From the NCBI GenBank assembly GCA_030446685.1, contig JAUJMV010000001.1, positions 18,273-82,272 of the forward strand: 64,000 nt of DNA. Direction: 5' to 3'. The DNA is from Thermomicrobiales bacterium. Its GTDB lineage: Bacteria; Chloroflexota; Chloroflexia; Thermomicrobiales; CADCWN01. Position 1 is the first letter of the stretch, and every line of letters starts with the position of its first letter. Position numbers and translations under genes: made by a program. Positions 14,563 to 41,837 of this stretch are shown in pieces. The notes beneath the pieces were generated by a model, which saw only the letters and a program-made list of their open reading frames with translations, did not search any database and was not told where the DNA came from.

Positions 14563-14636
14563 TTCACGGTTATTCACCGATGTTGATGAAACCGTTGACC
14601 CGCTTGACGCGCACGTTGACCCCCGCACGCTAGGCT
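14563..14636 (+). promoter_or_regulatory. TTNAC phased-array promoter, copy 1
   Basis: Half-sites TTCAC 14563, TTCAC 14573, TTGAT 14583, TTGAC 14595, TTGAC 14604 and TTGAC 14616 are spaced 10, 10, 12, 9 and 12 bp. A TAGGCT -10 box starts 15 bp after the last one, at 14631. There is no -35 at 17 bp. It faces the 62-residue gene at 14898, leaving a leader of about 255 bases with nothing else recognisable. Confidence 0.75.
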
Positions 14637-21843: not shown

Positions 21844-22224
21844 CTACTCGTTGCCGGCGAAGGCGATCGTGCTTAGCAGGGCGTTCTCGGCCTGCCGCGA
21901 GTCGAGCCGGGTGTGCTGCACGACGATCGGCACGTCCGACTCGATCACGCTGGCGTAGTCGGTCCCGGCCGGGATCGGCTCGGGCTCGGTCAGGTCGTTG
22001 AAGCGGACGTGGCGGGTGCGCCGGGCCGGCACCGTCACCCGGTAGGGGCCGGCGGGCTCACGGTCGGCGAAGAAGAGGGTGATCGTCACCCGCGCGTCCC
22101 GGTCCCCGGCGTTGAGCAGGCAGGCCGTCTCGTGGCTGGTGAAGAGCGGCGCCGGGCCGTTGCTCCACTCCGGGATGTAGCCCTCCGCGATCGCCCAGCG
22201 CCTCCGCCCGATCGGCGCGCTCAT
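21844..22224 (-). CDS. Sensory-rhodopsin-transducer family protein (ASRT-like)
   Basis: 126 residues from ATG 22224 with GAGGAAAGGGTGGG upstream. AIAEGYIPEWSNGP, SHETACLLNAGD, GPYRVTVPARRTRHVRFNDL and VPIVVQHTRLDSRQAENA follow the Anabaena sensory rhodopsin transducer along its whole length as I recall it. ASRT is a soluble beta-sandwich tetramer that partners a rhodopsin in Anabaena. No rhodopsin gene is present here. The downstream neighbour on the same strand is a GH13 sugar enzyme, which fits proposals that this fold binds small ligands such as sugars. The family call is firm; the role is not. Confidence 0.85.
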   Translation of the reverse strand: MSAPIGRRRWAIAEGYIPEWSNGPAPLFTSHETACLLNAGDRDARVTITLFFADREPAGPYRVTVPARRTRHVRFNDLTEPEPIPAGTDYASVIESDVPIVVQHTRLDSRQAENALLSTIAFAGNE

Positions 22225-23627: not shown

Positions 23628-24032
23628 CTACGCCTTCGGGAGATCGTCGCGCAGGACGCCGAGTCTGACCCCGTCCTCGGTGACGCCCGCGATCTGATCC
23701 GGGGCGGCGTAGCGGTCGCCGGAGAAGAGCCCGCCGTCGATCCGGATGAAGCCGGAGCGCAGCAGGCGCTGGCGCAGGGCCTCCGGGACCGTATCCTGGG
23801 GCAGGAACGCCTGGGCGATGTCCTCGATCAGCCCCCCGTCGGTCTCGCTGGCCGGCGAGACGGTCGCCGCGGCCTGGCCGGGGTCGGCATCCTTATTCGC
23901 CGCGCCCATGTAGACGCGCTCGACGGTGCCGATCTCCTCGCCCGCGTAATCGTAGACCCGCATCCCCTCCTCGATCAGGGTCAGGGGACCGTGCTGCTTG
24001 AACCGCCCGAACGGCTCGCTCGTTTCGGCCAT
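23628..24032 (-). CDS. PRC-barrel-like small protein
   Basis: 134 residues from ATG 24032 with GGAAGGAGGGTGACG before it. TLIEEGMRVYDYAGEEIGTV near the N-terminus and FIRIDGGLFSGDRYAAPDQI near the C-terminus follow the beta-barrel pattern of PRC/DUF2171 proteins (V-x-D-x-x-G-x-x-I-G-x-V). Such proteins are often stress-linked or serve as adaptor domains. It is driven by a clear TTNAC phased-array promoter 68 bases upstream, like the second PRC-barrel gene at 41288-41704. Confidence 0.65.
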   Translation of the reverse strand: MAETSEPFGRFKQHGPLTLIEEGMRVYDYAGEEIGTVERVYMGAANKDADPGQAAATVSPASETDGGLIEDIAQAFLPQDTVPEALRQRLLRSGFIRIDGGLFSGDRYAAPDQIAGVTEDGVRLGVLRDDLPKA

Positions 24033-24099: not shown

Positions 24100-24173
24100 A
24101 GTGTAGCAGCGCGGGGTCAACGGGCGCGTCAAAGGGGTAAACGGGAGGGTAAACAATGGTCAACAATGGTGAA
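24100..24173 (-). promoter_or_regulatory. TTNAC phased-array promoter, copy 2
   Basis: On the minus strand the half-sites start at 24173 (TTCAC), 24163 (TTGAC), 24153 (TTTAC), 24141 (TTTAC), 24132 (TTGAC) and 24120 (TTGAC): spacings 10, 10, 12, 9 and 12 bp. A TACACT -10 box starts 15 bp later, at 24105. The spacing is identical to copies 1, 4 and 5. Confidence 0.78.
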
Positions 24174-24278
24174 CGGGATGCGGGGACCCCCTGCCTGGGC
24201 GCCAACGCCCTGGGGCACACCGACCGGGGCGGCCAGGGGACTGGCGCCGGCACGGTCGAGGATCGCCCCGAGCCCGCG

Positions 24279-24978
24279 CTAGCGGGGTGGGATGAAGCGG
24301 TAGCCGGTGCCCCACTGGGTCTGGATGTAGCGCGGGCGCTCGGCGTCGTCGCCCAGCTTCTGGCGCAGGCGGCTGACGAAGACCTTGAGGTAGTGGACGT
24401 CGTGGGTGTAGTCGGCCCCCAGACCCGCTCCAGGAGGAGTTGGTGGGGCAGCGTCGTCCCGGCGTGGCGCACCAACTCCTCCAGGAGCAGGTACTCGGTG
24501 GGGGTCAGCTCGACCACCCGCCCCCCACGCGCACCTCGCGGGTGGCGAAGTCGAGGGTGAGGTCGCCCGCCGCGAAGTCGGGGGCGCCGGGGGCGGGGCC
24601 GGGGGCCGGGGCGGCGCGGCGGGCGAGGGCGCGCAGGCGGGCGAGCAGCAGCAGGTGGTCGAAGGGCTTGGTGAGGTAGTCGTCGGCCCCCAGGTCGAGC
24701 GCCTGCACCTCGTCCACGGTGGTGTCGCGCGCGGTGAGCATCAGGATCGGCACGCGGGAGGTCTGACGGATGCGCCGGCAGACCTCGAAGCCGTCGGGCG
24801 GCGGCATCGTCACGTCGAGGATCACCAGATCGGGCGCCTCCGCGGCGAAGCGGCGCAGCGCCTCCGCGCCGTCGGGGGCGATCGTCACCGCGCCGTCCGG
24901 CCAGAGGGTGCGCGCGCTCAGGGCGACCATCTGGGCCAGGTCGCGGTCGTCCTCCGCGATCAAGAGTTTCAGTGCCAT
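24279..24978 (-). CDS. OmpR-family response regulator, two frameshifts
   Basis: Starts at ATG 24978, overlapping the end of the kaiC-like gene. The receiver domain is complete: LLIAEDDRDLAQMV, the phosphoacceptor in DLVILDVTMPPPDGFE, the Thr in LMLTARD and the Lys in DDYLTKPFD. The winged-helix domain is split by two shifts: near 24527 (VRVGG to RVVELTPTEYLLLEELV) and near 24416 (LERVWG to ADYTHDVHYLKVFVSRLRQK), ending GTGYRFIPPR at TAG 24279-24281. Each is repaired by adding one G to a G run. As repaired it is a normal KdpE/PhoB-sized regulator of about 230 residues. Confidence 0.82.
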
Positions 24979-26530
24979 GGCCCCCCTCCCCGGTGGGCGT
25001 CCCGCTCGCCCCGCCCTCCGCGCCCCCGCCCGCCCCGACCGCGCCTCCGGCCGGATGTCGCCGGGCCGCCGGGGTCGGCCCCGCCGCCCGGCCCGGCCGC
25101 GGGCGCGGTGTGTACGACGATGCCTCCTTCCACAATATCATACGGGCGGAACTCTTTGCCATGCACGCTGCCGCGCATCTTGACCACGGCCAGGCTCTTG
25201 CTCAGCCGCCCGGGGGCCTCCTCGGCGTAGCGCAGCGCGATGATGTCGTCGGCCAGGATCGAGATGGCAAAGGGGCTGAAGCGCAGATCGGTGATCGCGT
25301 CCCCGCTGCTCTCGGCGGTCAGCAGGGCGGTGATGCCGCCGCCGGTCAGCGCCCCGACCAGCCGGTAGAGCGCCTCGCGGTACTCCTCCCCGCGGTAGGA
25401 GGGGGCCAGCGCCAGCTCGAAGCCGGACAGGGAGTCGATCACCACCCGCCGGGCGCCGATCCCGGCGGCCGCCTCGCGGATCGCCTCGAACGCCTCGCCG
25501 GGCGAGAGATCGAGCGCCCGCAGGTAGAGGAGCCGCAGCCGTCCCGCGCGCTGCAGCGCCGGCAGGTCGAACCCGAGGCCCGCCGCGCGGCGCAGGTAGG
25601 CCCCGGGGTGCTCGTCGAAGATGGCGATGACCCCCGGCTCGCCCGCCCGCGCCCCCGCGACGATGAATTGCAGCGCCAGGATCGACTTGCCCGCGCCGGT
25701 GGGGCCGCTGACCAGCACCGCGTCGCCGACCAGGATCCCCCCGCCGGTCAGCGCGTCCAGCCCCGGCACGCCGGCGTCGAGCCGGGTCGCCGGCAGCGGC
25801 CGGTCGGTCGGCTCCGGCGGCAACTGGACGCGCGGGAAGACCCGGAGGCCCGCCGCGCCGATGCGGAAGAGGTGCAGGCCGGGCCGCGTCGCCTGCCCGC
25901 GCAGCTTCAGCACCTGCAGCTTGCGCACGACGGCGTTGCGCTCGACGTCTTTGCTGAGCAGGAGGATGCCGTCGGCCACGGTGAAGGCGGGGTCGTCGCG
26001 CGCCTCGGCGTCGCCGTACTCGCCGACCAGGAAGGTGGTGGCCTGCGCGCCGGCCAGGCGCACCGCCAGCCGCTGGGTGAAATCCGCCAGTTCCAGCCGG
26101 CCGGCCCCGGCGCCGGCCGCCGCCCGTGCCAGGCCGCGGAAGGAGTCGACGACCACGAGGCCGGGATCGAGTTCCTCGACGCGCTGGGTGAGCGCCGCCA
26201 GCACCGCCGCCAGCCCCCGTCCAGCAGCGCGTCGCCGAGGTTGACGAAGTGGAGGCTCTCGCCCACCCTGGCCGGGTCGAAGAAGGTGAACTGCTGCTGG
26301 TAGCGCAGCAGCTTCAGCGCCGGCTCGCCGAGGACGGTGCAGTAGAGCGCGGGGCGCGCGGGGGAGGCCAGGGCGAAGACGATCTGCAGGGCCAGCGTCG
26401 TCTTGCCGGCGCCGGGCGGGCCGGCGATCAGGTTGAAGGAGTACTCCGGCAGGCCGCCCCCCAGCACCTCGTCGAGGCCGGGGACGCCGGTCGCCAGCGT
26501 GACGATGGGGACGGGTGGCTGCTCGCTCAT
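24969..26530 (-). CDS. KaiC-like dual-domain ATPase, one frameshift
   Basis: Two RecA-type domains. The first has GLDEVLGGGLPEYSFNLIAG and Walker A GPPGAGKTTLALQ, starting at ATG 26530. The second has GLDALTGGGILVGDAVLVSG, Walker A GPTGAGKSILALQF and a Walker B-like RRVVIDSLSGFELAL. A shift near 26213 (GDALLDGG to LAAVLAALTQRVEELDPG) is repaired by one extra G in a run of five. The C-terminus is a basic GRRRGRGGRGRG tail. KaiC-like proteins outside cyanobacteria often act with sensor kinases. Here the gene overlaps a helical protein upstream and a response regulator downstream, with a large histidine kinase next door. kaiA/kaiB are absent. Confidence 0.83.
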
Positions 26531-26976
26531 GGGGGCGTCTCCGGATGCGGGTCCGACTCGTCGCCGGCCAGGTCGGGCCAGGCCCGCCGCACCAGGCCGG
26601 CGGTGAGATCCTCGCCGATGAGGGTGTGCAGCAGGTGGAAGAGGTGGGCGAAGGCGGCCGCCAGCCCGGCCGCGACCTCCGCGGGCTCGCGGCCGGCGGC
26701 GAACGCGCGCGCCCCCTCCAGGCAGCGCTCCGGCCCTTCCGCCAGCGCGAGGGGCGCGAGGGCGGGATCATCGGCCCGCGCCAGCCGCAGGGCGCGGTCG
26801 AAGAGGGCCGCGAAGCCCACCGCCCCGATCAGCGGCGCCAGTTGCCCGCGCAGCCCCGCGCAGGCGCGCTCGGCGGCCGCCGCCAGGGACTCCGCCCCCT
26901 GACCGTCCCCGGTCTCGTGGCGCAGCACCCGGCGCGCCAACTCCCGGGCCAGTGGTGTGGGCAGGCTCTGGCTCAT
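26527..26976 (-). CDS. Helical protein preceding kaiC-like gene, unknown
   Basis: 149 residues from ATG 26976, stopping in an ATGA overlap with the kaiC-like start. Almost entirely alpha-helical and Ala/Leu-rich: LPTPLARELARRVLRHETGD, ESLAAAAERACAGLRGQLAP, EVAAGLAAAFAHLFHLLHTL and LTAGLVRRAWPDLAGD. There are no catalytic motifs. The helical bundle with His/Glu residues could be an input or histidine-phosphotransfer-like module, but no clear HPt motif is present. Translational coupling strongly suggests that it works with the ATPase. Confidence 0.65.
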   Translation of the reverse strand: MSQSLPTPLARELARRVLRHETGDGQGAESLAAAAERACAGLRGQLAPLIGAVGFAALFDRALRLARADDPALAPLALAEGPERCLEGARAFAAGREPAEVAAGLAAAFAHLFHLLHTLIGEDLTAGLVRRAWPDLAGDESDPHPETPP

Positions 26977-27038
26977 CTGCTCCACGGCGGTGAAGTACAA
27001 GAAAGTGCGGCAAAGCACGGAAAAGCCCCGTCCGCAGT

Positions 27039-30000
27039 TTACCAGCGCGCGCGCCGGGCGGCAAGGAACTGGCGCGGCCCCCCCCGGCCCCCAACTTTGG
27101 GGGAGAAGGAGGGGCGCGGGCGGCGGAACACCTCCCCCGCGGTCACGCCCCGGCGCCGTCGCCCCCCGCGGGGGGCGGCGCGCGGCAGGGCGACGTGGAA
27201 GGCGGCGCCCGCGTCCGGCGCGCTCTCCGCCCAGACGCGCCCGCCGTGCAGCTCGACGATGCTGCGGGTGACGGCCAGCCCCAGCCCCGAGCCGCCCCCT
27301 TCCGCGCCGACGCGGTGGAACCGCTCGAAGATCCGCCCCAGGTGCGCCGCCGGGATGCCGGGGCCGTCGTCGCGCACGGTGACGCGCACCGCCGCGCCCT
27401 CGTCCCGCCCGGTCACGACGATGCGCGTGCCGGCCGGCGTGTGCTCGTGGGCGTTCCCCAGCAGGTTGACGAAGATCTGCTCCAGCCGCCGCGCGTCGCC
27501 GACGACCGGCAGCGCCTCCGGCAGCTCGACCTCCAGCGCCTGCCCCTTGTCCGCGATCAGGGGGTGGAGCGCGCCGACGGCGTCGCCGACGACGGCGCGC
27601 AGGTCGAGCGGCGCGCGGCGGATCTCCAGCACCCCGGCCTCGAGCTGGTTGATCGTCAGCAGGTCGTCGACGTAGAGCGTCAGCCGCTCGATGTTCCGCC
27701 GCACCGCGGTGATCACCTCCCGCTCGACCGGCTCCAGCCGGTCGGCCGCGCGGAACTCCAGCATGCCCACCCCGACCCGCGCCGAGGTCAGCGGGGTGCG
27801 GAACTCGTGCGAGACCGAGGAGATGAACTCGCGCCGCAGCCGGTCGAGCTCCGCCAGGCGGGCCGCCTCGGCGCGCTCCGCCTCCGCCGCCTCCCGCTCG
27901 CGCAGGCTGGCGAGGAGGAGCCGCTCGTTGATCGCGCGGGCGGCCAGGGTCGCCGCCTCCTCCTCCGCCAGCCGTCGCTCGAACGCCCGGCGCTCGAGCG
28001 CGGCGGCGATCACGTTGGCGACGGCCTGGAGGAAGTTGCTGTCGTCCGGGGTGAACCGGCGCGGCGTGGCGCTGTCCGCCTGGAGGACGCCGAACGGGCG
28101 CTCCGTGCCGGGGATGAGCACACTCATGCTGCTGACGATCCCGTGGTCGCGCAGCAGGGGCGGCCGGATGAAGCGGGGGTCGGCGGCGAAGTCCTCGACG
28201 ATCACCGGCTCGCGCCGCGTGAGGCTGTAGCCCCCCTGGGTCTCCGGGCCGGCGCTGACGGTCGCCCGGCCGACGTACCCCTCCCGCCAGCCGGCGCCGG
28301 CCTGCAGCAGCAGCGCGTCGCCGTCCGGCGGCAGCTCCAGCACCTTGCTGTATCCCACGTCCAGCGTCGCGGCGACGAGCTGGGCCGCCTCGTCCAGGAT
28401 CGCGTCGAGGTCGGGCGTCGCCAGGGCGCGCCGGCCGAACGCGGCGACCGCCGCCTGCTGGCGGGCGCGCGCGGCGAGCTGCTCCTCCGCCCGCTTGCGC
28501 TCGGTGATGTCGTGGATCGTGCCGACGAGCCGGAGCGGCCGGCCGGCACGGTCGCGGGCGATCTCGGCCTCCTCATGCACCGTGCGGACCTCGCCGTCCG
28601 GGCGGACGATGCGGAAGTCGAGGCCGAGGGGCGCCCCCCCCGCGAACGCATCCTCGATCGCGCCCTGGACGGCCGCGCGATCGTCCGGGTGGACCGACTC
28701 GTAGAAGAACTCCTGGGTCGGGGTGATCGCCCCCGGCGCGTGGCCGAGGATGCGGTAGACCTCCGCGGACCAGTGGCCCTCGCCGCTCTCCGAGGCGTAC
28801 TCCCAGTGGCCGAGGTGGGCGATCCGCTGCGCCTCGGCGAGGCTGGCCTCGCTGCGCCGTAGCGCCGCCTCGGCCCGCCTGCGCTCGACGAACTGCCCGA
28901 TCTGGCCGCCGAGCGACCCGAGCACCGCGAGCGCGGCCGGGTCGGCCTCCCGCGGCTGGCGGCTGAGGAACTCCAGCACCCCGAGCACTTGCCCGTCGAG
29001 GCGGATCGGCAGGCCGGCGCCGGCGCGCAGCCCCTCGGCGGCGGCCACGCGCAGGCGCGGGAACCGCTCCTCGTCGACGGCCTCGGCGACCCAGCGCGGC
29101 TCGCCCGTGGCCCAGACGCTCCCCGGCAGCCCCTCGCCCGGCGCGAAGGCGGTCCGCCGACTGAGCGCGATGAACTCGGGGAAGTCCGCCGCCGGGGTGT
29201 GCCAGGCGGCGACGCAGCGCAGCACGTTGTCCCGCCGGTCGACGGTCCAGAGGGCGCCGTAGTCCCAGGCCAGCCCCTCGCCGATCGCCCGGAGGATGCG
29301 GGGGGTCGCCTCGTCGAGATCGGTGGCCTCCGCCAGGGCACGGCCCACCTCGTACTGGGTCGCCAGCCGGCGCTCGTGCCACTTGCGCTCTGTCACGTCG
29401 AGCGCCAGGCCGAGGCAGCCGACGACGCGGCCCGCCGCGTCCCGGAGCGGCTCGACGCGGCAGGCGAAGGTCCGGCCGCCGCTGTGCCGCTCGTACTCCG
29501 CGAGTTCCCCCGCCAACGCCCGGCGGTGGGCGACGAATCCGGGTGTATCCGCGCCCTCATCCTGGAAGAACTCGTCGAGCGTCCGCCCCACGAACATGCT
29601 CGGATCGCGCCCGAGGCGTGCGAGGCCGGCCCCCAGGACGGAGGTTACGCACAGGTCGGCGTCGGTCGTCCAGATGTGCGCGGGGATCTGCGCGTTGATC
29701 AGGCGCAGCGTGGCCTCGCTCTCGCGCAGCGCCGCCTCCGCCCGCCGGCGCGCGGTGACGTCGCGGAGGTTGAGGACGATGCCGCCGACGCTGGGGTCGT
29801 GCAGCAGGTTCTTGACGGTCACCTCCAGGGTGCGCCAGGTGCCGTCGGCGTGGCGCTGGCGCACCTCGATCGTGACCTCGCGGGCGGGGGTGTCGAGGAA
29901 GTCGGCGAAGAGCGGGCGCACCCGGTCAAAGTCGTCGGGATGGGGCGGCATCGCCTCCAGCGCCCTGGCGCCGACCAGGCCCGCGGGCGGGTAGCCCAGG

Positions 30001-30878
30001 ACCCGCTCGATCGCCGGGCTGATATAGAGGATGGCGCCGCGCGCGTCGACGACCGCGATCACGTCCGACGAGTTCCGCACCAGCGCGCTGAAACGCTCCT
30101 CGCTGCGGCGCAGCGCCTCTGCCGCCCGCCGGCGCTCGCCGATGTCGCGGAAGGCGACCACCGCGCCTTCGACGCGGCCGTCCCGCAGGAGCGGCGCCGA
30201 GGAGTAGGCGACCGGGAGGAACGTGCCGTCCTTGCGGATGAAGGCGTCGTCTTCGGTCCGGTAGATCGCGCCCGAGCGGAGCACCTGCAGGCCGTCGCAC
30301 TCCTCGCGCGGGTACGGCGTGCCGTCCGGGCGCCGGTAGTGGATCGCGTCGTGCATGACCCGGCCGAGCAACTCGGCGCTGGTCCAGCCGAGCAGCCGCT
30401 CGGCGGCGGGGTTCACGAAGGTCGCGCGGCCCTCGCGGTCGATCGCGTAGACCCCCTCCGCCAGGCTGTCGTCAATCGCGCGGCTGAACTCGAGCCGGCG
30501 GCGCAGATCGTCCTCGCGCGCCCGGACGGCGGCGCGCAGCGAGCCGACCAGCAGCGCGACGATGACCGCGGTCACCGGCAGCGAGGCGAGGCGCAGGGCG
30601 TTCTCGGGGGTGTAGGTGAGGGACGGGACGGGGGTGGCGAGGTAGTAGACGCCGTACAGGCTCACGATCCCGGCGCTGATCAGCCCGGCCCGCTGGCCGT
30701 ACTGGAAGGCGACGTAGGCGACGATCGCCAGGAAGGGGGTGAGAGTCGGCAGGCGGAAGGCCGCGCGCGAGAAGACCTCGACGGCCGCGACGGCGGCCAG
30801 CGTGACGAGCAGGGCCGGCACGGGGCGCTGGAAGGGGCGATCCCGGGGGTCGGCCGGGGCGCGTGACATGGCGCGCAT
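27039..30878 (-). CDS. Large membrane sensor histidine kinase with PAS and GAF domains
   Basis: 1279 residues from ATG 30878 (GGGGGAC upstream). In order: about four membrane helices (residues ~19-125); several PAS domains (IDREGRATFVNPAAERLLGW, VDARGAILYISPAIERVLGY, an INAQIPAHIWTTDADLC block, and AQRIAHLGHWEYASESGEG); GAF domains both between PAS units and after them (EFLSRQPREADPAALAVLGS, PFGVLQADSATPRRFTPDD); a coiled segment; HisKA with SSVSHEFRTPLTSARVG near residue 1010; and HATPase with NLLGNAHEHTPAGT, RDDGPGIPAAHLGRIFERF and GSGLGLAVTRSIVE. It is the likely kinase for the adjacent response regulator and kaiC-like genes. Confidence 0.92.
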   Translation of the reverse strand: MRAMSRAPADPRDRPFQRPVPALLVTLAAVAAVEVFSRAAFRLPTLTPFLAIVAYVAFQYGQRAGLISAGIVSLYGVYYLATPVPSLTYTPENALRLASLPVTAVIVALLVGSLRAAVRAREDDLRRRLEFSRAIDDSLAEGVYAIDREGRATFVNPAAERLLGWTSAELLGRVMHDAIHYRRPDGTPYPREECDGLQVLRSGAIYRTEDDAFIRKDGTFLPVAYSSAPLLRDGRVEGAVVAFRDIGERRRAAEALRRSEERFSALVRNSSDVIAVVDARGAILYISPAIERVLGYPPAGLVGARALEAMPPHPDDFDRVRPLFADFLDTPAREVTIEVRQRHADGTWRTLEVTVKNLLHDPSVGGIVLNLRDVTARRRAEAALRESEATLRLINAQIPAHIWTTDADLCVTSVLGAGLARLGRDPSMFVGRTLDEFFQDEGADTPGFVAHRRALAGELAEYERHSGGRTFACRVEPLRDAAGRVVGCLGLALDVTERKWHERRLATQYEVGRALAEATDLDEATPRILRAIGEGLAWDYGALWTVDRRDNVLRCVAAWHTPAADFPEFIALSRRTAFAPGEGLPGSVWATGEPRWVAEAVDEERFPRLRVAAAEGLRAGAGLPIRLDGQVLGVLEFLSRQPREADPAALAVLGSLGGQIGQFVERRRAEAALRRSEASLAEAQRIAHLGHWEYASESGEGHWSAEVYRILGHAPGAITPTQEFFYESVHPDDRAAVQGAIEDAFAGGAPLGLDFRIVRPDGEVRTVHEEAEIARDRAGRPLRLVGTIHDITERKRAEEQLAARARQQAAVAAFGRRALATPDLDAILDEAAQLVAATLDVGYSKVLELPPDGDALLLQAGAGWREGYVGRATVSAGPETQGGYSLTRREPVIVEDFAADPRFIRPPLLRDHGIVSSMSVLIPGTERPFGVLQADSATPRRFTPDDSNFLQAVANVIAAALERRAFERRLAEEEAATLAARAINERLLLASLREREAAEAERAEAARLAELDRLRREFISSVSHEFRTPLTSARVGVGMLEFRAADRLEPVEREVITAVRRNIERLTLYVDDLLTINQLEAGVLEIRRAPLDLRAVVGDAVGALHPLIADKGQALEVELPEALPVVGDARRLEQIFVNLLGNAHEHTPAGTRIVVTGRDEGAAVRVTVRDDGPGIPAAHLGRIFERFHRVGAEGGGSGLGLAVTRSIVELHGGRVWAESAPDAGAAFHVALPRAAPRGGRRRRGVTAGEVFRRPRPSFSPKVGGRGGPRQFLAARRARW

Positions 30879-31060
30879 GGTGTCCCCCAAGACCCCGCTT
30901 ACAGCGCCGCGGGACGGGCGGCGCGGCTGGTCGGGCGTTGTGAGGAAGGCGGCGCCGGCGCGCGACCGATCGCGGCTGAGCCGTCCACGGTGGCCCCCGC
31001 GATGGCGCCGCGACCCGACGAGAGAACGGCGCGGTGGGTCAAATATTGCCCACGTTCCAG

Positions 31061-31077
31061 TGTAACAAAGTGCTACA
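31061..31077. promoter_or_regulatory. Imperfect 17-bp dyad between divergent genes
   Basis: TGTAACA-AAG-TGCTACA is a dyad with one mismatch, lying between the histidine kinase (minus strand, start 30878) and the HTH-MEDS regulator (plus strand). It may be an operator for the latter. A TAGAAT -10-like box for the plus-strand gene lies at 31161-31166. Confidence 0.35.
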
Positions 31078-31230
31078 AAGAACACAACCGTGCCGGGACC
31101 GCGTCCGGGGCGTCGCGCCGGGAGCGCCGCCTGGGCGCGGAGCCCGCCGGGCGGCGTGTAGTAGAATGGGTGGGCAATGGGGCCGTTTGTCCCATCGGGA
31201 CCGCGTCGCCGGCAGGGAAGGCAGCCAACC

Positions 31231-31986
31231 GTGGATGAAGGAGGCGCCGCGAACCGGGAGCTGCTGGGGGTCGAGGACGTCGCCCGCTACCTGGGCGTGC
31301 GCCCGACCACTGTCTACCGCTGGTGCCGCGAGGGGCGCCTGCCCTGCCTGAAGATCGGCAAGGGCTGGCGCATCCGCCGCTCCGCCCTGGAGGACTTCCT
31401 GCAGCGCGGCGAGCGCCGGCAGCGGCTGGTGGACCACCTGCGCCCCTTCTTCACCGTGCCCGACCACGTCATCGGCGTCGCCGAGGACCTGGAACTGCTG
31501 GACCGCCTCGACGCCGCCTTCTTCCAGGTCGGGGAGGCGCGCGACGGCCTGCTGATCAAGTACCACGCCGCCGACCCCCGCCCGCCCGCCGATCTGCGCC
31601 GCGCGCTGACGCGGCACGGGCTGGAGGTCGCGCGGCTGGAGCGTGAAGGGCGCTTCGCCTTCCGCGACGACCCCGATCCGGTGCGGGGGCGGGTCGAGTC
31701 GCTGCGGCGGCTCCTCACGGAGGAGGCCAGCGGGGGCCGGACGGTCTGGGTGACCTATGAGTGGGTGGAGTCGATCGATCTGGAGGCCGCGCTGGGGCAG
31801 CAGGAGGCGCTGGCGGCGGCGATCGACGCCCACCCGTGCGTGGTCAAGACGTCGGTGCTGCAGCCGGTGGCGGACCAGTGGCCGCCGCCGCTCCAGCGGC
31901 GGGTGCAGCGCCACTACCGCGGGCAGATCTGGCTCGCGCGCGCCGGCCTCTTCCTAACCCGCTCGGCCCCGCTGCCGGCGGCGTGA
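31231..31986 (+). CDS. HTH regulator with MEDS sensory domain
   Basis: The frame is open from 31177, but a TAGAAT box at 31161 makes the GTG at 31231 the likelier start (251 residues). The N-terminal HTH_17/excisionase-type domain reads LLGVEDVARYLGVRPTTVYR then GRLPCLKIGKGWRIRRSALE. After a linker comes a MEDS-like domain (methanogen/methylotroph DcmR sensory): HVIGVAEDLELLDRLDAAFF, GLLIKYHAADPRPP and RTVWVTYEWVESIDLEAAL. Proteins of this type regulate transcription in response to small signals. A near-perfect dyad lies upstream and the histidine kinase is divergent. Confidence 0.82.
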   Translation: MDEGGAANRELLGVEDVARYLGVRPTTVYRWCREGRLPCLKIGKGWRIRRSALEDFLQRGERRQRLVDHLRPFFTVPDHVIGVAEDLELLDRLDAAFFQVGEARDGLLIKYHAADPRPPADLRRALTRHGLEVARLEREGRFAFRDDPDPVRGRVESLRRLLTEEASGGRTVWVTYEWVESIDLEAALGQQEALAAAIDAHPCVVKTSVLQPVADQWPPPLQRRVQRHYRGQIWLARAGLFLTRSAPLPAA

Positions 31987-32031: not shown

Positions 32032-32126
32032 TTAACCCCCATTAACCCCCGTTGACCCCCTCCTTAACCATCTTTACCGATGCCGCAACGCTCTTAACGC
32101 GCACGTTGACCCCTCCCCGGTAGGCT
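32032..32126 (+). promoter_or_regulatory. TTNAC phased-array promoter, copy 3 (longest)
   Basis: Eight positions: TTAAC 32032, TTAAC 32042, TTGAC 32052, TTAAC 32064, TTTAC 32073, a degenerate GCAAC 32085, TTAAC 32094 and TTGAC 32106. The steps are 10, 10, 12, 9, 12, 9 and 12 bp, so this copy has one extra 9+12 unit. TAGGCT starts 15 bp after the last, at 32121. Confidence 0.78.
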
Positions 32127-32186
32127 GGGATGCAAGAGCGGCGCCCGAGCGGGCCGCGGCCTACGGCAAACAAGGGAGGGCTGGCG

Positions 32187-32360
32187 ATGCTGGAACGACT
32201 GCGACACCTGCTGCGACACCTGGAACGCGCCGGTTGGCGGGACAACCGGATCGGGCGGGCCTGGACGGCCCCCGCCCCCGCGCCGGCCCTGGCGACCGTG
32301 GTGGCGCGCAACCCGCGCCCCGTCCGCCGCGCCGCGCGCGCGCGAGTGACCTACAAGTAG
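32187..32360 (+). CDS. Small basic protein, 57 residues
   Basis: ATG 32187 with GGGAGGG ahead, about 60 bases after a TTNAC-array promoter. MLERLRHLLRHLERAGWRDN forms an amphipathic helix. A proline/alanine stretch (APAPAPALATVVARNPRP) and a basic end (VRRAARARVTYK) follow. No family is recognised. The high Arg content suggests nucleic acid or acidic-membrane binding. Confidence 0.5.
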   Translation: MLERLRHLLRHLERAGWRDNRIGRAWTAPAPAPALATVVARNPRPVRRAARARVTYK

Positions 32361-32425
32361 CCGGGGCGCCGGCGGGCGCCGGTGTGGTGACGGCTGCGTA
32401 GGCGCGTCGTGTGGTTAAGGAGGGC

Positions 32426-32609
32426 ATGATGGTTTTCCCACCGCGCGGACCGTACCCGGCGGGAACGCCCGGCTACCGGCGGTACTGGGGCTACTACAAC
32501 CGCCCCCGCGGCGGCTGCGGCTGCCTGTACACCCTGCTGATCATGCATCCTGCTGCTCTGGGCGCTCTTCTCCTGGCTGATCTCCCCGCTCCCCTTCTGG
32601 TACTGGTGA
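32426..32609 (+). CDS. Small membrane protein with Gly/Tyr/Pro-rich head, frameshifted
   Basis: ATG 32426 (and 32429) just after TTAAGGAGGG. The head is MMVFPPRGPYPAGTPGYRR, then YWGYYNRPRGGCGCLYTLLI. Around 32545 the frame breaks. Removing one base gives LLLWALFSWLISPLPFWYW and a stop at 32607-32609, an obvious membrane helix with an aromatic end. The repaired protein is about 60 residues. Similar short G-Y-R-rich heads followed by a single helix occur in many genomes, without known function. Confidence 0.5.
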
Positions 32610-32802
32610 GCGGCCACCGGGCCCCCGCATCGCCTGACCCCGCGCCGGGGCGGCGGGCGAGCGGGGCGCATTGACCGGGATTGGTCGGCGCTGACCGCGC
32701 CGTTCACCCGGTTCCCCGCCCGCGCCCGCCCATCAACCGGTCTGCGCTGTGCCGCGGCCGGGGGGACGCCGCGGCCCGTGGCGCGGCAGAGGAAGGTGTG
32801 GT

Positions 32803-33188
32803 ATGGCTGCCTCGCCCGCCGGACGCCCGCCGGATCGGCCCTGGTGGCCCTCCTGGCTGGCTTCTGGCTCCACCGGCTGTGCTTCCCATCCCAGTCCGGG
32901 GGAGGAGGGGTTGACCGCGCCGCCCCCCGACCCGCCCGGCCGGACGCCCGCCGGGGGCGCGCCCCGGCCCCGCCCCCGGCCCCGTCAGCCGGCCCCGCCG
33001 CGCCCGCGGCGGGGGCGCGGCAGGCGGCGGCGACGCTCGTCGCCGAGCGGTGGGGGCCGCCGGCGCCGGCCGGCCCCGCGCCCGACGCGTTCACGGCGGC
33101 CGTTCACGGCGGCCGAGCGGCGACGGCTGCTCTTCATGCGCTGGCTCTACCACCGGGGGAACTGACGGAATTCCCGCGCCAGCGCTAG
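32803..33188 (+). CDS. Pro/Arg-rich small protein sharing [13 protein letters not shown] motif, frameshifted
   Basis: ATG 32803 behind GAGGAAGG. The first ~95 residues are low-complexity Pro/Arg/Gly. The end, [20 protein letters not shown], matches the C-terminus of the 62-residue protein at 14898-15086. As written the frame stops at TGA 33163-33165 right after WLYHRGN. One extra G in the GGGGG just before gives [11 protein letters not shown] and a stop at 33188, again matching the paralogue (RLTEFPRDQ). The shift is therefore recent or a base-call error. It ends 46 bases before ftsH. Confidence 0.55.
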
Positions 33189-33234
33189 CCCCCGTCGGCC
33201 CGGGACGACGAGCGAGGAGTTGCGAGGACCACCG

Positions 33235-35245
<2,011 letters not shown>

Positions 35246-35274: not shown

Positions 35275-35348
35275 TTTACCGGCGTTGACCAACGTTGAGA
35301 CAGTCGTTGACGGCGTTTACCCGCACGTTGACCCAAGCCGGCTAGAGT
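35275..35348 (+). promoter_or_regulatory. TTNAC phased-array promoter, copy 4
   Basis: TTTAC 35275, TTGAC 35285, TTGAG 35295, TTGAC 35307, TTTAC 35316 and TTGAC 35328 (10, 10, 12, 9 and 12 bp), then TAGAGT at 35343, 15 bp after the last. It serves the holin-like/DUF3618 pair. Confidence 0.78.
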
Positions 35349-35468: not shown

Positions 35469-35864
35469 ATGCAAGAGCGGAAAGACGAGCGCTCGCTCCC
35501 CGAACTCTTCGGGGAACTCGCGGGGGAGATGAGCGTCCTGGTGCGCCAGGAGATCGAACTCGCCAGGACGGAGGTGACGCAGAAGGCCAAGAGCGTCGTG
35601 AAGGACGTCGCGATGCTGGTCATCGGGGGCGTGCTGGCCTTCGCGGGCCTCCTGGTGCTGCTGGTGGCGATCGCCATCGGGATCGCGCAACTGGGGCTCA
35701 CCCCCTGGCTGGCGTTCCTGCTGGTCGCGGTGGCGACCCTGGCGATCGGGGCCATCCTGGCGCAGCAGGGCCTCAAGCAGCTCAAGCAGCAGGATCTGAA
35801 GCCGACGCGGACGATCGAGTCGTTGAAGGAGGACAAGGAATGGGCAAAAGCGCAGACGAAATGA
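35469..35864 (+). CDS. Phage-holin-family/DUF1469 (YqjE-like) membrane protein
   Basis: 131 residues from ATG 35469 (GAGAAGGAGCG). The N-terminal amphipathic helix LPELFGELAGEMSVLVRQEI ELARTEVTQKAK is followed by two membrane helices, VAMLVIGGVLAFAGLLVLLV and LTPWLAFLLVAVATLAIGA, the standard layout of holin-X/YqjE proteins. In enterobacteria YqjE is encoded with YqjD, a ribosome-associated inner membrane protein. Here too the next gene is a DUF3618 protein of the same general kind. The pair is behind a TTNAC-array promoter. Confidence 0.82.
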   Translation: MQERKDERSLPELFGELAGEMSVLVRQEIELARTEVTQKAKSVVKDVAMLVIGGVLAFAGLLVLLVAIAIGIAQLGLTPWLAFLLVAVATLAIGAILAQQGLKQLKQQDLKPTRTIESLKEDKEWAKAQTK

Positions 35865-36457
35865 GGCGGGACCCGCGCGTCGTCGCGGCGCCGGCCGACG
35901 CGCCGGAGACGGTGCGGCTCGAGGCCGAGATCGCCGAGACGCGCGCGGAGATGGGCGAGACGATCGGCGCGATCCAGCAGCAGCTCGCGTCGCAGCAACT
36001 GCAGGAGCAGGCGAAGCAACTGGGCGAGCAGGCCAAGGAGAACGCCCGCGAGGTCGCCCAGGAGGTGATGCAGGAGGCGAAGGCGCACGCGCTCGATGTG
36101 GTCGAGCAGGCCAAGGCGCAGGCGCAGGAGACCGTCGAGCAGGCGAAGGGGCAGGCCCGGGCCGCGACCGTCGGCCGGGCCGAGCAGGCCATGCAGCGCG
36201 CGCGCGAGATGGCGCAGCAGGCCAAGCAGCACCCGCGCCAGACGGCGCAGCAGGCCTGGTCCACCGCGCGCACGACCGTCAAGCAGCACCCGACCGCGTC
36301 GGCGGTGACCGGGGCGGGGATCGGGCTGCTCTTCCTGCGGCGGCGGCTCAAGGCGCGGAAGGACCACCGGGAGGCCGCCCGCATCGTCGACCTGTACGCC
36401 ATCTACGACGCGGAGGATGCGCGCGACCTGCGCGACCTGCGCGACCTGCGGGCCTGA
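35840..36457 (+). CDS. DUF3618 membrane-tethered coiled-coil protein
   Basis: 205 residues, overlapping the previous gene by 25 bp with its own AAGGAGGACAAGG site. ETVRLEAEIAETRAEMGETI is the DUF3618 signature. A long Ala/Gln/Glu heptad region (KQLGEQAKENAREVAQEVMQ onward, residues ~55-150) should form an extended coiled coil. A short hydrophobic segment (ASAVTGAGIGLLFL) and a basic stretch follow. The C-terminus contains three direct 9-bp repeats encoding RDLRDLRDL. It is comparable in layout to YqjD/ElaB ribosome-tethering proteins, though homology is not shown. Confidence 0.78.
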   Translation: MGKSADEMRRDPRVVAAPADAPETVRLEAEIAETRAEMGETIGAIQQQLASQQLQEQAKQLGEQAKENAREVAQEVMQEAKAHALDVVEQAKAQAQETVEQAKGQARAATVGRAEQAMQRAREMAQQAKQHPRQTAQQAWSTARTTVKQHPTASAVTGAGIGLLFLRRRLKARKDHREAARIVDLYAIYDAEDARDLRDLRDLRA

Positions 36458-36536: not shown

Positions 36537-36610
36537 TTTACTTTCGTTCACCGTCGTTGATACCTTCGTTTACCGCTATTACCGGCACATTGACCCGCGG
36601 CGCGTACGAT
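36537..36610 (+). promoter_or_regulatory. TTNAC phased-array promoter, copy 5
   Basis: TTTAC 36537, TTCAC 36547, TTGAT 36557, TTTAC 36569, ATTAC 36578 (one mismatch) and TTGAC 36590 (10, 10, 12, 9 and 12 bp), then TACGAT at 36605, 15 bp after the last. A leader of about 210 bases with no recognised element separates it from the substrate-binding protein gene. Confidence 0.75.
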
Positions 36611-36823: not shown

Positions 36824-38785
36824 ATGACTGCACTGGAACAGGGCCGCGAGGACTACACGCCGCTGCTGGAGGAGTGGGAACGCCGGGGGCTCAACCGGCG
36901 GCACTTCCTGCGCCTGCTGCTGGCCGGGGCCAGCACCGCCACCATCGCCGGCGTCCTGGCCGCCTGCGGCGACGCGACGCCGACCGCCGGCGTCGGGACG
37001 ACCGGGGGCGCCGCCACCGGGATGACGACCACCACCGCGGCCGGCACGACGAGCGCGGCCGGCACGACGGCGGCGTCCACCACCGCCGCCGCCGCCGCGG
37101 CCACGGCGACGAGCGGCCCTGGGGCCGGCGCCATCCGCGTCGGCAGCCCGTCTGCCTCGCCGATCGGCAGCCCGGTCGCCGGGCAGGTCGACTACCCCGG
37201 CGCCGGCAAGTTCAGCACGCTGGAGCCGGTCGGCAAGCCGGGCGGGCTGATCATCGAGGTCTCCTTCGCCGACGGCAAGACGACCAACCCGATGCTCTCC
37301 AGTGATTCCGCCTCCGCCTCCTACATCGCGATGATGTTCACCCCGGTGATCGGCGTCAACCCGGATACGGGGCTGCCCTTCGCCAACCTGGCGACCAAGG
37401 TGCCGACGCGGGAGAACGGCCTCGTCTCGCCCGACGGCCTGACCTACACCTTCCCGCTGCGCAACGACGTCAAGTGGCACGACGGCCGGCCCTTCACCGC
37501 CGCCGACGTGAAGTTCACCTACGAGACGATGATGAACAAGGCGCTCGGCTCGCCGCGCACCAGCGAGCTGGTCGACCGGATCGAGTCGGTGACGACGCCG
37601 GACGACTACACCGCCGTCTTCAAGCTGAAGAAGGTCGTCGCCCCCTTCCTGGTCGACAACATGGTCTACGGCGTCGTGCCGAAGCACATCCTCGAGAAGG
37701 TGTCGGTGAACGACATCAAGACGCACCCCTTCAGCACCGGCTCGCCGCAGACGATCGGGACCGGCCCCTTCAAGTTCAAGGAGTGGGTCAAGGACGATCA
37801 CTTCACCGTGGTGCGCTTCGACGACTACTTCCGCGGCAAGCCGGCGCTCGACGAGTACGTCTTCAAGGTCGTCCGCGACGCCAACGTGGTGGTGGCGCAG
37901 CTCAAGACCGGCGAGGCGGACTACGGCAGCGTCACCGAGTCGTTCTACGCCGAGCTGAACCAGCAGCCGAACCTCAACCTCCTCAAGTACGACACCTACT
38001 CCTTCACCTACTACGCCTACCAGCTCGATCCGACCAAGACGACCCTCTTCCAGGACAAGAAGGTGCGCCAGGCGCTCGCCTACGGCCTCGACCGCCAGGC
38101 GATGATCAAGTCGATCCGCTTCGGCATCGGCGAGGTGGCGACCGGGACCGAGCCGGTCCTCTCCTGGGCCTACGCCCCGGACAAGATGAACACCACCTAC
38201 TCCTACAACCCGCAGAAGGCCCAGCAACTGCTGGAGGAGGCGGGCTGGACGAAGGGGCCGGACGGCATCCGCACCAAGGACGGGCGGCGCCTCGCCTTCA
38301 CCCTCTGGACCAACGCGGGCAACAAGGTCCGCGAGCAGTACGTCACCGTCATGCAGCAGTTCTGGAAGAACATCGGCGTGGAGGCGACCCCCAAGACCGA
38401 GGAGTGGAACGCCATCCTGACGCGGATCACCGAGACGCACGACTTCGACATGTTCCTGATCGGCTTCGGCTGGGGGGTCGACCCCGACCAGAGTACCATG
38501 TGGCAGACCGACGCCTACGAGGGCGGCTTCAACATGAACAAGTACTCCAACGAGCGGGTCGACCGCATCCTGGCCGAGGCGCTCAGCACGCTCGACCAGG
38601 AGAAGCGCAAGCAGCTCTACATCGAGATGCAGAACATCATCATGGACGAGCTGCCGAGCTTCATCATGGACTTCCCGCAGGCGCTGGTGGGGGTCAACAA
38701 GCGGATCCACAACCTCAAGCCGAACGCGATCAACACCCGCTGGAACGCCCACACCTGGTGGGTGGACAATCCGGGCGGGCGGTAA
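36824..38785 (+). CDS. Tat-exported lipoprotein, peptide/oligopeptide ABC substrate-binding protein
   Basis: 653 residues from ATG 36824 (AAGGAGAGACAG). The leader has the twin-arginine LNRRHFLRLLLAGAS and a lipobox ending VLAAC, so it should be exported folded and lipidated. A ~70-residue Thr/Ala linker follows. The SBP_bac_5 domain contains PDGLTYTFPLRNDVKWHDGR, FTAADVKFTYETMM, GTGPFKFKEWVKDD, KKVRQALAYGLDRQAMIKSI and WTNAGNKVREQYVTVMQQFW. No permease or ATPase genes are adjacent, so it may feed a transporter encoded elsewhere. Strong hairpins follow the gene. Confidence 0.93.
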   Translation: MTALEQGREDYTPLLEEWERRGLNRRHFLRLLLAGASTATIAGVLAACGDATPTAGVGTTGGAATGMTTTTAAGTTSAAGTTAASTTAAAAAATATSGPGAGAIRVGSPSASPIGSPVAGQVDYPGAGKFSTLEPVGKPGGLIIEVSFADGKTTNPMLSSDSASASYIAMMFTPVIGVNPDTGLPFANLATKVPTRENGLVSPDGLTYTFPLRNDVKWHDGRPFTAADVKFTYETMMNKALGSPRTSELVDRIESVTTPDDYTAVFKLKKVVAPFLVDNMVYGVVPKHILEKVSVNDIKTHPFSTGSPQTIGTGPFKFKEWVKDDHFTVVRFDDYFRGKPALDEYVFKVVRDANVVVAQLKTGEADYGSVTESFYAELNQQPNLNLLKYDTYSFTYYAYQLDPTKTTLFQDKKVRQALAYGLDRQAMIKSIRFGIGEVATGTEPVLSWAYAPDKMNTTYSYNPQKAQQLLEEAGWTKGPDGIRTKDGRRLAFTLWTNAGNKVREQYVTVMQQFWKNIGVEATPKTEEWNAILTRITETHDFDMFLIGFGWGVDPDQSTMWQTDAYEGGFNMNKYSNERVDRILAEALSTLDQEKRKQLYIEMQNIIMDELPSFIMDFPQALVGVNKRIHNLKPNAINTRWNAHTWWVDNPGGR

Positions 38786-39906: not shown

Positions 39907-40290
39907 TCAGCGGAGGTAGCGCCGCACCAGCGCGAGGAGGGCGTCCGCCTCGAACGGCTTGGTCAGGATATCCTCGTAGGGCTCGCCGTCGAGTTGAGCG
40001 ACCAGATCGTCGGGCGCTTCGGCGGTGACGAAGACCACCGGCACCCGGCGGGTCCGCGGGTCCGCCTTCAGCCGGCGGCAGACCTCGATCCCGTTCAGGC
40101 CCGGCATCCGCACGTTCAGCAGCACCAGCCCCGGCGGATCGGCCGCGGCGGCGAGCGTGCTGGGGCCGTCACCGCAGACGGTGACCCGATAGCCCGCATT
40201 CTTCAGCAGGACGCTCAGGATCGTCGCCATCGAAGGGTCATCCTCGGCGACCAGCACGCGGCTATCGCCGTCCTGTGTCCGGGCAGTCAT
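39907..40290 (-). CDS. Receiver-only response regulator with Asn at the phosphorylation site
   Basis: 127 residues from ATG 40290. It has the acidic pair in VLVAEDDPSMATIL, the conserved Thr in VVFVTAEAPDD and the Lys in EDILTKPFEADAL, but the phosphoacceptor position reads GLVLLNVRMPGLNG, with AAC coding Asn in place of Asp. It has no output domain. Such pseudo-receivers cannot be phosphorylated normally and often act by protein contact. The 5' leader of about 125 bases begins at a TTNAC-array promoter (copy 6). It may be a decoy or adaptor in the regulon defined by those arrays. Confidence 0.87.
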   Translation of the reverse strand: MTARTQDGDSRVLVAEDDPSMATILSVLLKNAGYRVTVCGDGPSTLAAAADPPGLVLLNVRMPGLNGIEVCRRLKADPRTRRVPVVFVTAEAPDDLVAQLDGEPYEDILTKPFEADALLALVRRYLR

Positions 40291-40418: not shown

Positions 40419-40493
40419 AGTGTACCAGGGGCGCGTCAACGCCGGTGTTGTATCCGTAAATAATTGGGTTACAAGGAAGTCAATAACCGTCAA
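40419..40493 (-). promoter_or_regulatory. TTNAC phased-array promoter, copy 6 (minus strand)
   Basis: On the minus strand: TTGAC 40493, TTGAC 40483, GTAAC 40472, TTTAC 40460, a degenerate position at 40451 and TTGAC 40439 (10, 11, 12, 9 and 12 bp), with TACACT starting at 40424, 15 bp after the last. Faces the receiver-only gene and is back to back with copy 7. Confidence 0.68.
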
Positions 40494-40536
40494 CGACCGG
40501 CGGGAAGGCGGGCCGCGCGCCGCGCGGCGGCGCCCG

Positions 40537-40590
40537 TTGACGCACCCGTTGACGATCTTAACGGGTACGTTGACCGCTCCCCGTTAGATC
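40537..40590 (+). promoter_or_regulatory. TTNAC phased-array promoter, copy 7
   Basis: TTGAC 40537, TTGAC 40549, TTAAC 40558 and TTGAC 40570 (12, 9 and 12 bp), with TAGATC starting at 40585, 15 bp after the last. The two outermost half-sites are replaced by a GC-rich stretch. Divergent from copy 6. Confidence 0.7.
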
Positions 40591-40675: not shown

Positions 40676-41089
40676 ATGGCCACGACGATCGGCAACCGTA
40701 TCATCGCCTGGGGGCTGCTGGCGATCGCCGTGCTGGCGAACATCGCCGGCTACGTCTTCAACCTGTACCGGCAGTTCGTCTGGTTCGACGAGGTGGTGCA
40801 TGCCTACACGATCTTCGCCATCACGCTGGTGCTGGCGTTGTTCCTGTACGGCGCCGCGCTGACGGGGGCGGGCGACCACACCCTGCTCCTGGTGCTGGTG
40901 ATCGCCAGCGTCGGCCTGGCGATCGGCGCGCTCTGGGAGGTCGCGGAATGGGCCTACGACCAGGTGGTGAGCGGCAACGCGATCAAGGGCAAGACCGATA
41001 CGATCATCGACATGATCGTGGATACGCTCGGCGCGCTGGTGGCCGGTTGGCTGGCGTCGTGGATGGTGCGCCGGAAGCGCGGGTTCTAA
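40676..41089 (+). CDS. DUF2238-like membrane protein
   Basis: 137 residues from ATG 40676 (GTGAGGAGGAGGGC). Four helices: IIAWGLLAIAVLANIAGYVF, AYTIFAITLVLALFLYGAAL, TLLLVLVIASVGLAIGALWE and MIVDTLGALVAGWLASWMV. The conserved polar residues WFDEVVHAYT, WEVAEWAYD and KGKTDTIIDMIVD match the YjdF/DUF2238 family, whose function is unknown. Transcribed from a TTNAC-array promoter 86 bases upstream and followed by two large hairpins. Confidence 0.75.
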   Translation: MATTIGNRIIAWGLLAIAVLANIAGYVFNLYRQFVWFDEVVHAYTIFAITLVLALFLYGAALTGAGDHTLLLVLVIASVGLAIGALWEVAEWAYDQVVSGNAIKGKTDTIIDMIVDTLGALVAGWLASWMVRRKRGF

Positions 41090-41287: not shown

Positions 41288-41704
41288 CTACACGTAGTAG
41301 GGGTAGGCGGGATAGGCGTAGCCCGGCGCCCAGTAGGGGCTGTAGCCGTAGTAGCCGTAGACGTCGTTGAAGTAGGTCTCGTCCGCCAGCTCGGGATCGT
41401 AGCGCGGCCCGCCGGCGACCCGCTCGCGAGTCTGATTGATGTAGACGGTGTCGTCCGCGATCCGGGTGATGGCGTCCACCGGGATCATGAACTTGGTCTC
41501 GCCGATCCCGAGGAACCCGCCGCTGCCGGCGAGCAGGAAGCGGACCTTCGCCTCGCGGTCGTCGATCAGCAGATCCTCGACCTTGCCGATCTCCTCGCCT
41601 GCGCGGTCCACGATCGCCCGGCCGCGGATGTCCTCGGCGGGGTCGGCGACCGTCAAGTCCGAGTCGCTCAGCTTGTAGACGTTCGCTCGCGCATCGATCG
41701 TCAT
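41288..41704 (-). CDS. PRC-barrel protein with Tyr/Pro-rich tail
   Basis: 138 residues from ATG 41704 with GGAGGAGAAAG upstream. A short N-terminal segment leads into the PRC-barrel core: DIRGRAIVDRAGEEIGKVED, LIDDREAKVRFLLAGSGG and KFMIPVDAITRIADDTVYIN. The tail is aromatic (YFNDVYGYYGYSPYWAPGYA). PRC-barrel proteins of this size are often stress- or envelope-associated. Its promoter is TTNAC-array copy 8, about 60 bases upstream, as for the other PRC-like gene at 23628-24032. Confidence 0.85.
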   Translation of the reverse strand: MTIDARANVYKLSDSDLTVADPAEDIRGRAIVDRAGEEIGKVEDLLIDDREAKVRFLLAGSGGFLGIGETKFMIPVDAITRIADDTVYINQTRERVAGGPRYDPELADETYFNDVYGYYGYSPYWAPGYAYPAYPYYV

Positions 41705-41763: not shown

Positions 41764-41837
41764 ACGATAGCGGGCAAGGGTCAACGTGCGCGTTAAGGGA
41801 GTAAACAGGGGTGTCAACGTCGGTCAACGTTGGTTGA
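41764..41837 (-). promoter_or_regulatory. TTNAC phased-array promoter, copy 8 (minus strand)
   Basis: On the minus strand: a degenerate position at 41837, then TTGAC 41827, TTGAC 41817, TTTAC 41805, TTAAC 41796 and TTGAC 41784 (10, 10, 12, 9 and 12 bp), with TATCGT starting at 41769, 15 bp after the last. Confidence 0.77.

Follow-up and report, generated by a model that had tools for sequence, protein, structure and literature searches.

Eight arrays of directly repeated TTNAC half-sites lie in the 64,000-nucleotide stretch analysed here (the window; G000:C25:18273-82272, from the 7.04-Mb genome G000 of 111 contigs), and in their complete form they combine six half-sites at a fixed, uneven spacing with a -10-like box at a fixed distance. 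We consider it likely that these six-site arrays are activator-dependent promoters of an OmpR/PhoB-type regulator that controls an envelope regulon. Two of the arrays stand back to back between a gene for a stand-alone receiver and a gene for a small membrane protein, and probably bring both genes under the same control.

Six-site arrays and their constant distance to the -10 box

The window has a GC content of 72.7% and contains eight arrays of at least three same-strand TTNAC half-sites, compared with 0.005 expected from 200 order-1 shuffles, none of which produced an array of at least four half-sites. Six of the eight are listed here and the divergent pair formed by copies 6 and 7 is described below:

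14563..14620, plus strand, array copy 1, -10 TAGGCT
24116..24173, minus strand, array copy 2, six perfect half-sites, -10 TACACT
32032..32110, plus strand, array copy 3, -10 TAGGCT
35275..35332, plus strand, array copy 4, -10 TAGAGT
36537..36594, plus strand, array copy 5, -10 TACGAT
41780..41837, minus strand, array copy 8, -10 TATCGT, 76 bp ahead of a PRC-barrel gene

A complete copy consists of half-sites at offsets 0, 10, 20, 32, 41 and 53, a 10-10-12-9-12 spacing whose five steps span 53 bp or about five helical turns. Counts across G000 are based on pattern searches and fetched stretches, and the exact core TTNAC-N4-TTNAC-N7-TTNAC occurs 12 times in this genome (seven times on C25, three times on C52, the others on C10 and C102) with no match to the reversed-pattern control. 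Allowing one mismatch gave 20 matches against 10 in the control, and because this control is not nil, weak one-mismatch matches were not trusted by themselves. A scan by half-sites only, chosen to avoid bias towards the -10 box, recovered 13 arrays in ten G000 stretches and none in the reversed sequence. A TAnnnT motif lies at offset 10 past the last half-site in 12 of these 13 arrays and at no other offset between 0 and 29. A flexible scan that also scored the -10 box returned 52 arrays scoring at least 9 in 602,828 bp and none in the reversed sequence or in five order-2 shuffles; the sequence covered came from the surroundings of arrays, regulators or receiver homologues, many of these stretches having been picked for their arrays or regulators, and the scan serves as a specificity check, not as a survey.

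The spacing is preserved unevenly along the array. The 10-10-12-9-12 form accounts for 14 of 17 G000 arrays, and 10-10-12-10-12 is dominant in relatives. Steps 1 to 2 (10 bp) and 5 to 6 (12 bp) are almost invariant, step 3 to 4 is mostly 12 bp with 11 or 13 bp in some arrays of the relatives G029 and G039, step 2 to 3 is 10 bp and at times 11 bp, and step 4 to 5 is 9 bp in nearly all G000 arrays and in G001 and 10 bp in most others. This pattern of variation suggests three dimers occupying sites 1-2, 3-4 and 5-6. At the sequence level the arrays have the layout of a class II activator site, with the operator standing where a -35 box would be and keeping a constant distance to the -10 box, and they look like promoters for an activator that substitutes for the -35 box.

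Linkage to an OmpR/PhoB-family regulator

The reference copy of the candidate regulator lies beside arrays on contig C52, where L025:9263-9973 encodes a protein matching PF00072 (Response_reg) and PF00486 (Trans_reg_C) and thus belonging to the OmpR/PhoB family. An adjacent gene, L025:9970-11313, encodes a histidine kinase (HisKA, HATPase_c), and an array at L025:11578 stands divergent from it. The window holds a second copy:

24505..24978, minus strand, start of a frame-broken OmpR/PhoB-family regulator, 82% identical to the C52 regulator, with array 2 directly downstream

This regulator copy (24270-24978, minus) and an FtsH-like gene (32110-35245, plus) are both frame-broken through assembly indels or decay, and frame breaks in the window resemble assembly indels. 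Beside the regulator copy, 24969-31986 forms a dense signalling cluster with a KaiC-like ATPase, a 1279-aa PAS/GAF histidine kinase and an HTH_17 protein.

Relatives were searched in a panel of 101 genomes (G000 and 100 others) for the 9-bp core and of 61 genomes for the 10-bp pattern. The 9-bp core with its -10 box clearly exceeded the control in G000 alone (14 against 0), with several other genomes near control, and by itself would point to a system private to G000. The 10-bp variant corrects this view: at the relatives' regulator loci, sites 4 and 5 of the arrays are 10 bp apart and half-sites often read GTTCAC, and the 10-bp pattern occurs in 11 of the 61 genomes, including 11 matches in G029, 10 in G039, 4 in G023 and 3 in G017, against one control match in total. 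A tree built from 36 rows groups the regulators of 11 genomes in a single clade with support of 100/100; close to it, the G039 regulator and another copy from G000 (C79) make up a supported set of their own. Matches to the 12-10-12 pattern were found in 8 of the 11 clade genomes compared with 3 of 50 others (Fisher 8e-6), the three being G019, G052 and G039, of which G039 has its regulator in the neighbouring supported set. G039 also holds variant GTAAC-TTAAC-TTGAC arrays (L136, L178, L180) together with this neighbouring-set regulator, possibly a parallel system.

Physical linkage points the same way. At 8 of 14 regulator loci a same-strand array lies no more than about 350 bp 3′ of the regulator gene (G000 C25, G000 C39, G001, G011, G021, G023 C69, G033 and G057; the C39 array is weak, scoring 7.5). 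No array lies directly downstream of the regulator at G000 C52, G017 or G023 C152, the G053 locus has three half-sites and no scored array, and the G029 and G031 loci stop at contig ends. Weak arrays with two to four good half-sites occur in G001, G053, G031, G056 and by C39. Those on C39 (L123 10453, 14142 and 14797) have two or three good half-sites, partly GTTCAC, and adjoin a 68%-identical paralogous regulator, perhaps as a separate sub-regulon. A plasmid search for the regulator gave distant matches only. From linkage and co-occurrence together we infer that the arrays are recognised by this OmpR/PhoB-type regulator.

Several regulatory genes lie near the window arrays, among them the HTH_17, KaiC-like and PAS/GAF kinase genes, and it could be some other DNA-binding protein that binds the arrays, its genes simply accompanying the regulator; the HTH_17 protein at 31231-31986 or a non-OmpR factor would be examples. 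We regard this as rather unlikely, as head-to-tail, TTNAC-like repeats about one turn apart are typical of OmpR-family sites (PMC4832192, PMC4415409, PMC12802237), and the arrays are linked to and co-occur with the OmpR-type clade across genera.

Read from the arrays, their spacing, the -10 position, the conservation of the operator class and the regulator linkage, binding, dimer grouping, activation and stimulus would take the following form. Six copies of the OmpR/PhoB-family regulator would bind in head-to-tail order, forming three dimers (sites 1-2, 3-4 and 5-6) on the same face of the DNA, with the last half-site replacing the -35 box and ending 10 bp before the TAnnnT -10 box. With the last half-site in the -35 place next to the -10 box, the bound regulator would recruit RNA polymerase. 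Cell-envelope or general stress is the probable signal for the kinase, and most members of the regulon would be envelope proteins. With the -10 box so near the array, a bound protein could equally block polymerase, and the arrays might then be repressor operators or sites of mixed function. We give this a low probability: the sole TTGAC near the -10 box is the last half-site itself, which at 10 bp is too close to act as a normal -35 box, and the fixed -10 distance in 12 of 13 arrays fits contact with polymerase. An operator that replaces the -35 box close to the -10 box is the layout of PhoB-type activation.

The divergent pair and the predicted regulon

Copies 6 and 7 and their presumed target genes are arranged as follows, and the interval 40419-40590 runs from the outer end of one -10-like box to that of the other:

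39907..40290, minus strand, stand-alone receiver of 127 aa, Asp replaced by Asn (Pfam Response_reg, alignment), copy 6 target
40424-40419, minus strand, copy 6 -10-like box TACACT, 10 bp past the last half-site
40435..40493, minus strand, array copy 6, spacing 10-11-12-9-12, directed towards the receiver gene 39907-40290
40494..40536, no strand, GC-rich spacer between the divergent arrays, 43 bp between the outermost half-sites
40537..40574, plus strand, array copy 7, four TTNAC half-sites at 12-9-12 (sites 3-6), directed towards 40676-41089
40585..40590, plus strand, copy 7 -10-like box TAGATC, imperfect, 10 bp past the last half-site
40676..41089, plus strand, membrane protein of 137 aa with a weak DUF2238 match (21 bits against a cut-off of 26.4), copy 7 target

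The initial annotation had described two back-to-back TTNAC arrays here, and both are confirmed against the chance expectation of 0.005 arrays for the eight present; coordinates and strands also agree with its claim that copy 6 faces the receiver gene and copy 7 the DUF2238-like gene. Copy 6 combines four perfect TTNAC half-sites with degenerate GTAAC and ACAAC in register, copy 7 has GC-rich sequence where sites 1-2 are missing, and both are weaker than the best arrays. Each array has its own -10-like box, and on this sequence evidence the two are divergent promoters, not one shared operator. The proposal that a regulator bound here would control both genes holds in that the same operator class stands at each, and gives way in that there are two promoters in place of a single site. 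With a separate array of this operator class standing in promoter position before each gene, the two are probably under one regulator and their co-regulation is likely; feedback by the Asn-substituted receiver is hypothetical.

The label of pseudo-receiver was correct, as the phospho-acceptor position reads LVLLN, not LVLLD, with Asp at this position in the five closest stand-alone homologues (two on C95 and one on C81 of G000, two in G001). No array scoring at least 8.5 was found near these five in the fetched stretches (L171-L174). The label of DUF2238 is weaker: the product is a membrane protein, its match falls below the cut-off, and similar genes occur in 2 of 61 genomes, the second at only 28% identity. 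The initial annotation had named conservation of the arrays beside either gene as a check, and this fails in part, with the DUF2238-like gene in two genomes and the closest receiver homologues lacking arrays in the stretches fetched around them. The pair appears to be lineage-specific, and with its conservation partly contradicted, it is the two arrays that place it in the regulon. Through copies 6 and 7 the regulon would gain a receiver with an Asn substitution and a membrane protein that is DUF2238-like.

GADDY-type residues of the α4-β5-α5 face mediate dimerisation in OmpR-family regulators. Lacking these residues in our alignment, the receiver is not a favoured candidate for pairing directly with the regulator. 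The same observation bears on the idea that copies 6 and 7 form one shared operator, held in a looped or joined complex, with strictly interdependent genes and the receiver acting as a feedback inhibitor. The arrays are merely 43 bp apart, and G039 has a back-to-back pair too (L137, 431-490 minus, score 8, and 522-579 plus, score 10.5); set against this are a separate -10 box and at least four half-sites on each side, a receiver with neither the OmpR-type interface residues nor the phospho-acceptor Asp, and the poor conservation of the pair, and we judge a shared operator improbable. The plus-side array of the G039 pair precedes a gene judged PRC-barrel-like by eye.

Two independent promoters of a wider regulon remain our preferred reading of the pair, and copies 2, 3, 4, 5 and 8 face these genes:

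23628..24032, minus strand, weak PRC-barrel match, copy 2 target
33866-35245, plus strand, frame-broken FtsH-like gene with a small membrane ORF, downstream of copy 3
35469-36457, Phage_holin_3_6 and DUF3618-like genes behind copy 4
36824-38785, SBP_bac_5 gene starting 230 bp past copy 5
41288..41704, minus strand, PRC-barrel protein, copy 8 target

Also downstream of array 2, an Anabaena sensory rhodopsin transducer (ASRT) family gene (21844-22224) lies near VKOR and SPW membrane genes. Gene distances in G000 were taken from the first gene caller or ORF listings, the second gene caller being poorer on this genome. Further G000 targets are an MscS-type channel, a calcineurin-like phosphoesterase, an AI-2E-type transporter and a DUF5670 membrane protein; DUF308 and HtrA-like genes follow at a greater distance from a G000 array. 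In G029 an HtrA-type protease and a secreted Cu/Zn superoxide dismutase lie 98 bp and 137 bp from arrays, and in G039 (L178) a PRC-barrel protein similar to the copy 8 target lies 124 bp from one. The recurrence of PRC-barrel, HtrA, channel and small membrane proteins suggests an envelope or general stress regulon; some targets are unlike stress genes, such as the peptide ABC solute-binding protein behind array 5 and a hydrolase cluster. Predicted exported proteins with similar-looking motifs also stand behind arrays in four genomes (L127:13035-14000, L182:4324-5196, L187:1443-2249 and L185:4646-5575), those at L127 and L182 having no Pfam match.

The clearest conserved target, and a putative signature of the regulon, is a protein of about 89 aa with no credible Pfam match. 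Ten of 61 genomes encode it, in 14 genes altogether, and 9 of the ten belong to the regulator clade (Fisher 3e-8); an array scoring 7 to 27 lies 62-86 bp upstream of 12 of the 14 genes, the two exceptions being a divergent copy and a gene at a contig end. Family members include L024:6569-6838, L025:14398-14619 (= G000:C52:29397-29618) and relatives at L146-L158. Outside the order (G174, G286 and G314) no arrays lie upstream of this protein, so the module looks order-specific. An exact five-site pattern run against 84,980 species returned four stretches, three of which were discounted as resembling coding or simple-repeat chance matches. The fourth, from a contig end of a Dehalococcoidia UBA2777 metagenome-assembled genome, holds an array of six TTAAC sites (L061:19-77, minus) followed by TATACT at offset 10, and this genome was set aside as a further carrier, with one clear array only and the rest at control level. 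An origin of the arrays in chance, repeat elements or faulty assembly is extremely improbable despite the indel-like frame breaks in the window, given near-zero controls and a layout shared with relatives of other genera.

Comparison with known systems

OmpR-family operators are usually described as uniformly spaced repeats, and we found no published description of the present operator in the open-licence literature. By sequence the closest solved relatives of the regulator are KdpE, MtrA and RegX3, a likeness at family level only (E-values 1e-41 to 1e-44). A tentative extension of our model, which we find conceivable and on present evidence doubtful, is a fixed six-subunit OmpR-family complex on an uneven 10-10-12-9/10-12 operator, in which the spacing hardly changes within dimers (10, 12, 12) and shifts by 1 bp between dimers from one family to the next, and which would govern the envelope-stress regulon of one order, including an Asn-receiver that tunes its own kinase. 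The layout recurs with base-pair exactness over the genome and across genera, which makes regulator stacking on DNA directly testable, and the genes behind the arrays, as predicted members, supply a ready-made regulon map of an uncharacterised stress-like system.

For the receiver, the nearest parallel is the class of aspartate-less receivers such as RitR, which carries Asn53 at the phosphorylation site; Asn is the second commonest substitution in this class and can deamidate to Asp (PMC4395418). In contrast to RitR-type proteins, the receiver described here stands alone and has no output domain.

For the operator, the literature cited here describes OmpR/PhoB-family regulators as binding direct repeats in tandem dimers, with Mycobacterium tuberculosis PhoP requiring a strict 11-bp spacing, stacking as trimer and tetramer, and losing cooperative binding on a 1-bp spacing change (PMC4832192). 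The PHO box of Streptomyces PhoP, and PhoB/PhoP sites more generally, share with our arrays a regulator of this family, tandem direct repeats and complex multi-unit operators, and the PHO unit, GTTCACC in 11-nt repeats, is identical to the GTTCACC half-sites of relatives' arrays (PMC4415409). The 10-10-12-9/10-12 spacing departs from that 11-nt unit (7 conserved positions plus 4), and no phosphate-uptake gene is among the examined targets, which do include a calcineurin-like phosphoesterase. The CpxR box is given as GTAAA-N5-GTAAA, with GTCAA variants selected by Pseudomonas aeruginosa CpxR (PMC12802237). Read on the other strand it becomes TTTAC-N5-TTTAC and fits sites 1-2 and 2-3 but not sites 3-6, and its consensus is one half-site pair, compared with six half-sites at mixed spacing here; HtrA-type proteases and other envelope genes among the targets recall the Cpx envelope stress response. 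The operators appear to share half-site and layout with known OmpR-family sites but not their uniform spacing; the system is ordinary in principle, and what sets it apart is the exact, uneven six-site layout and the clean mapping of its regulon.
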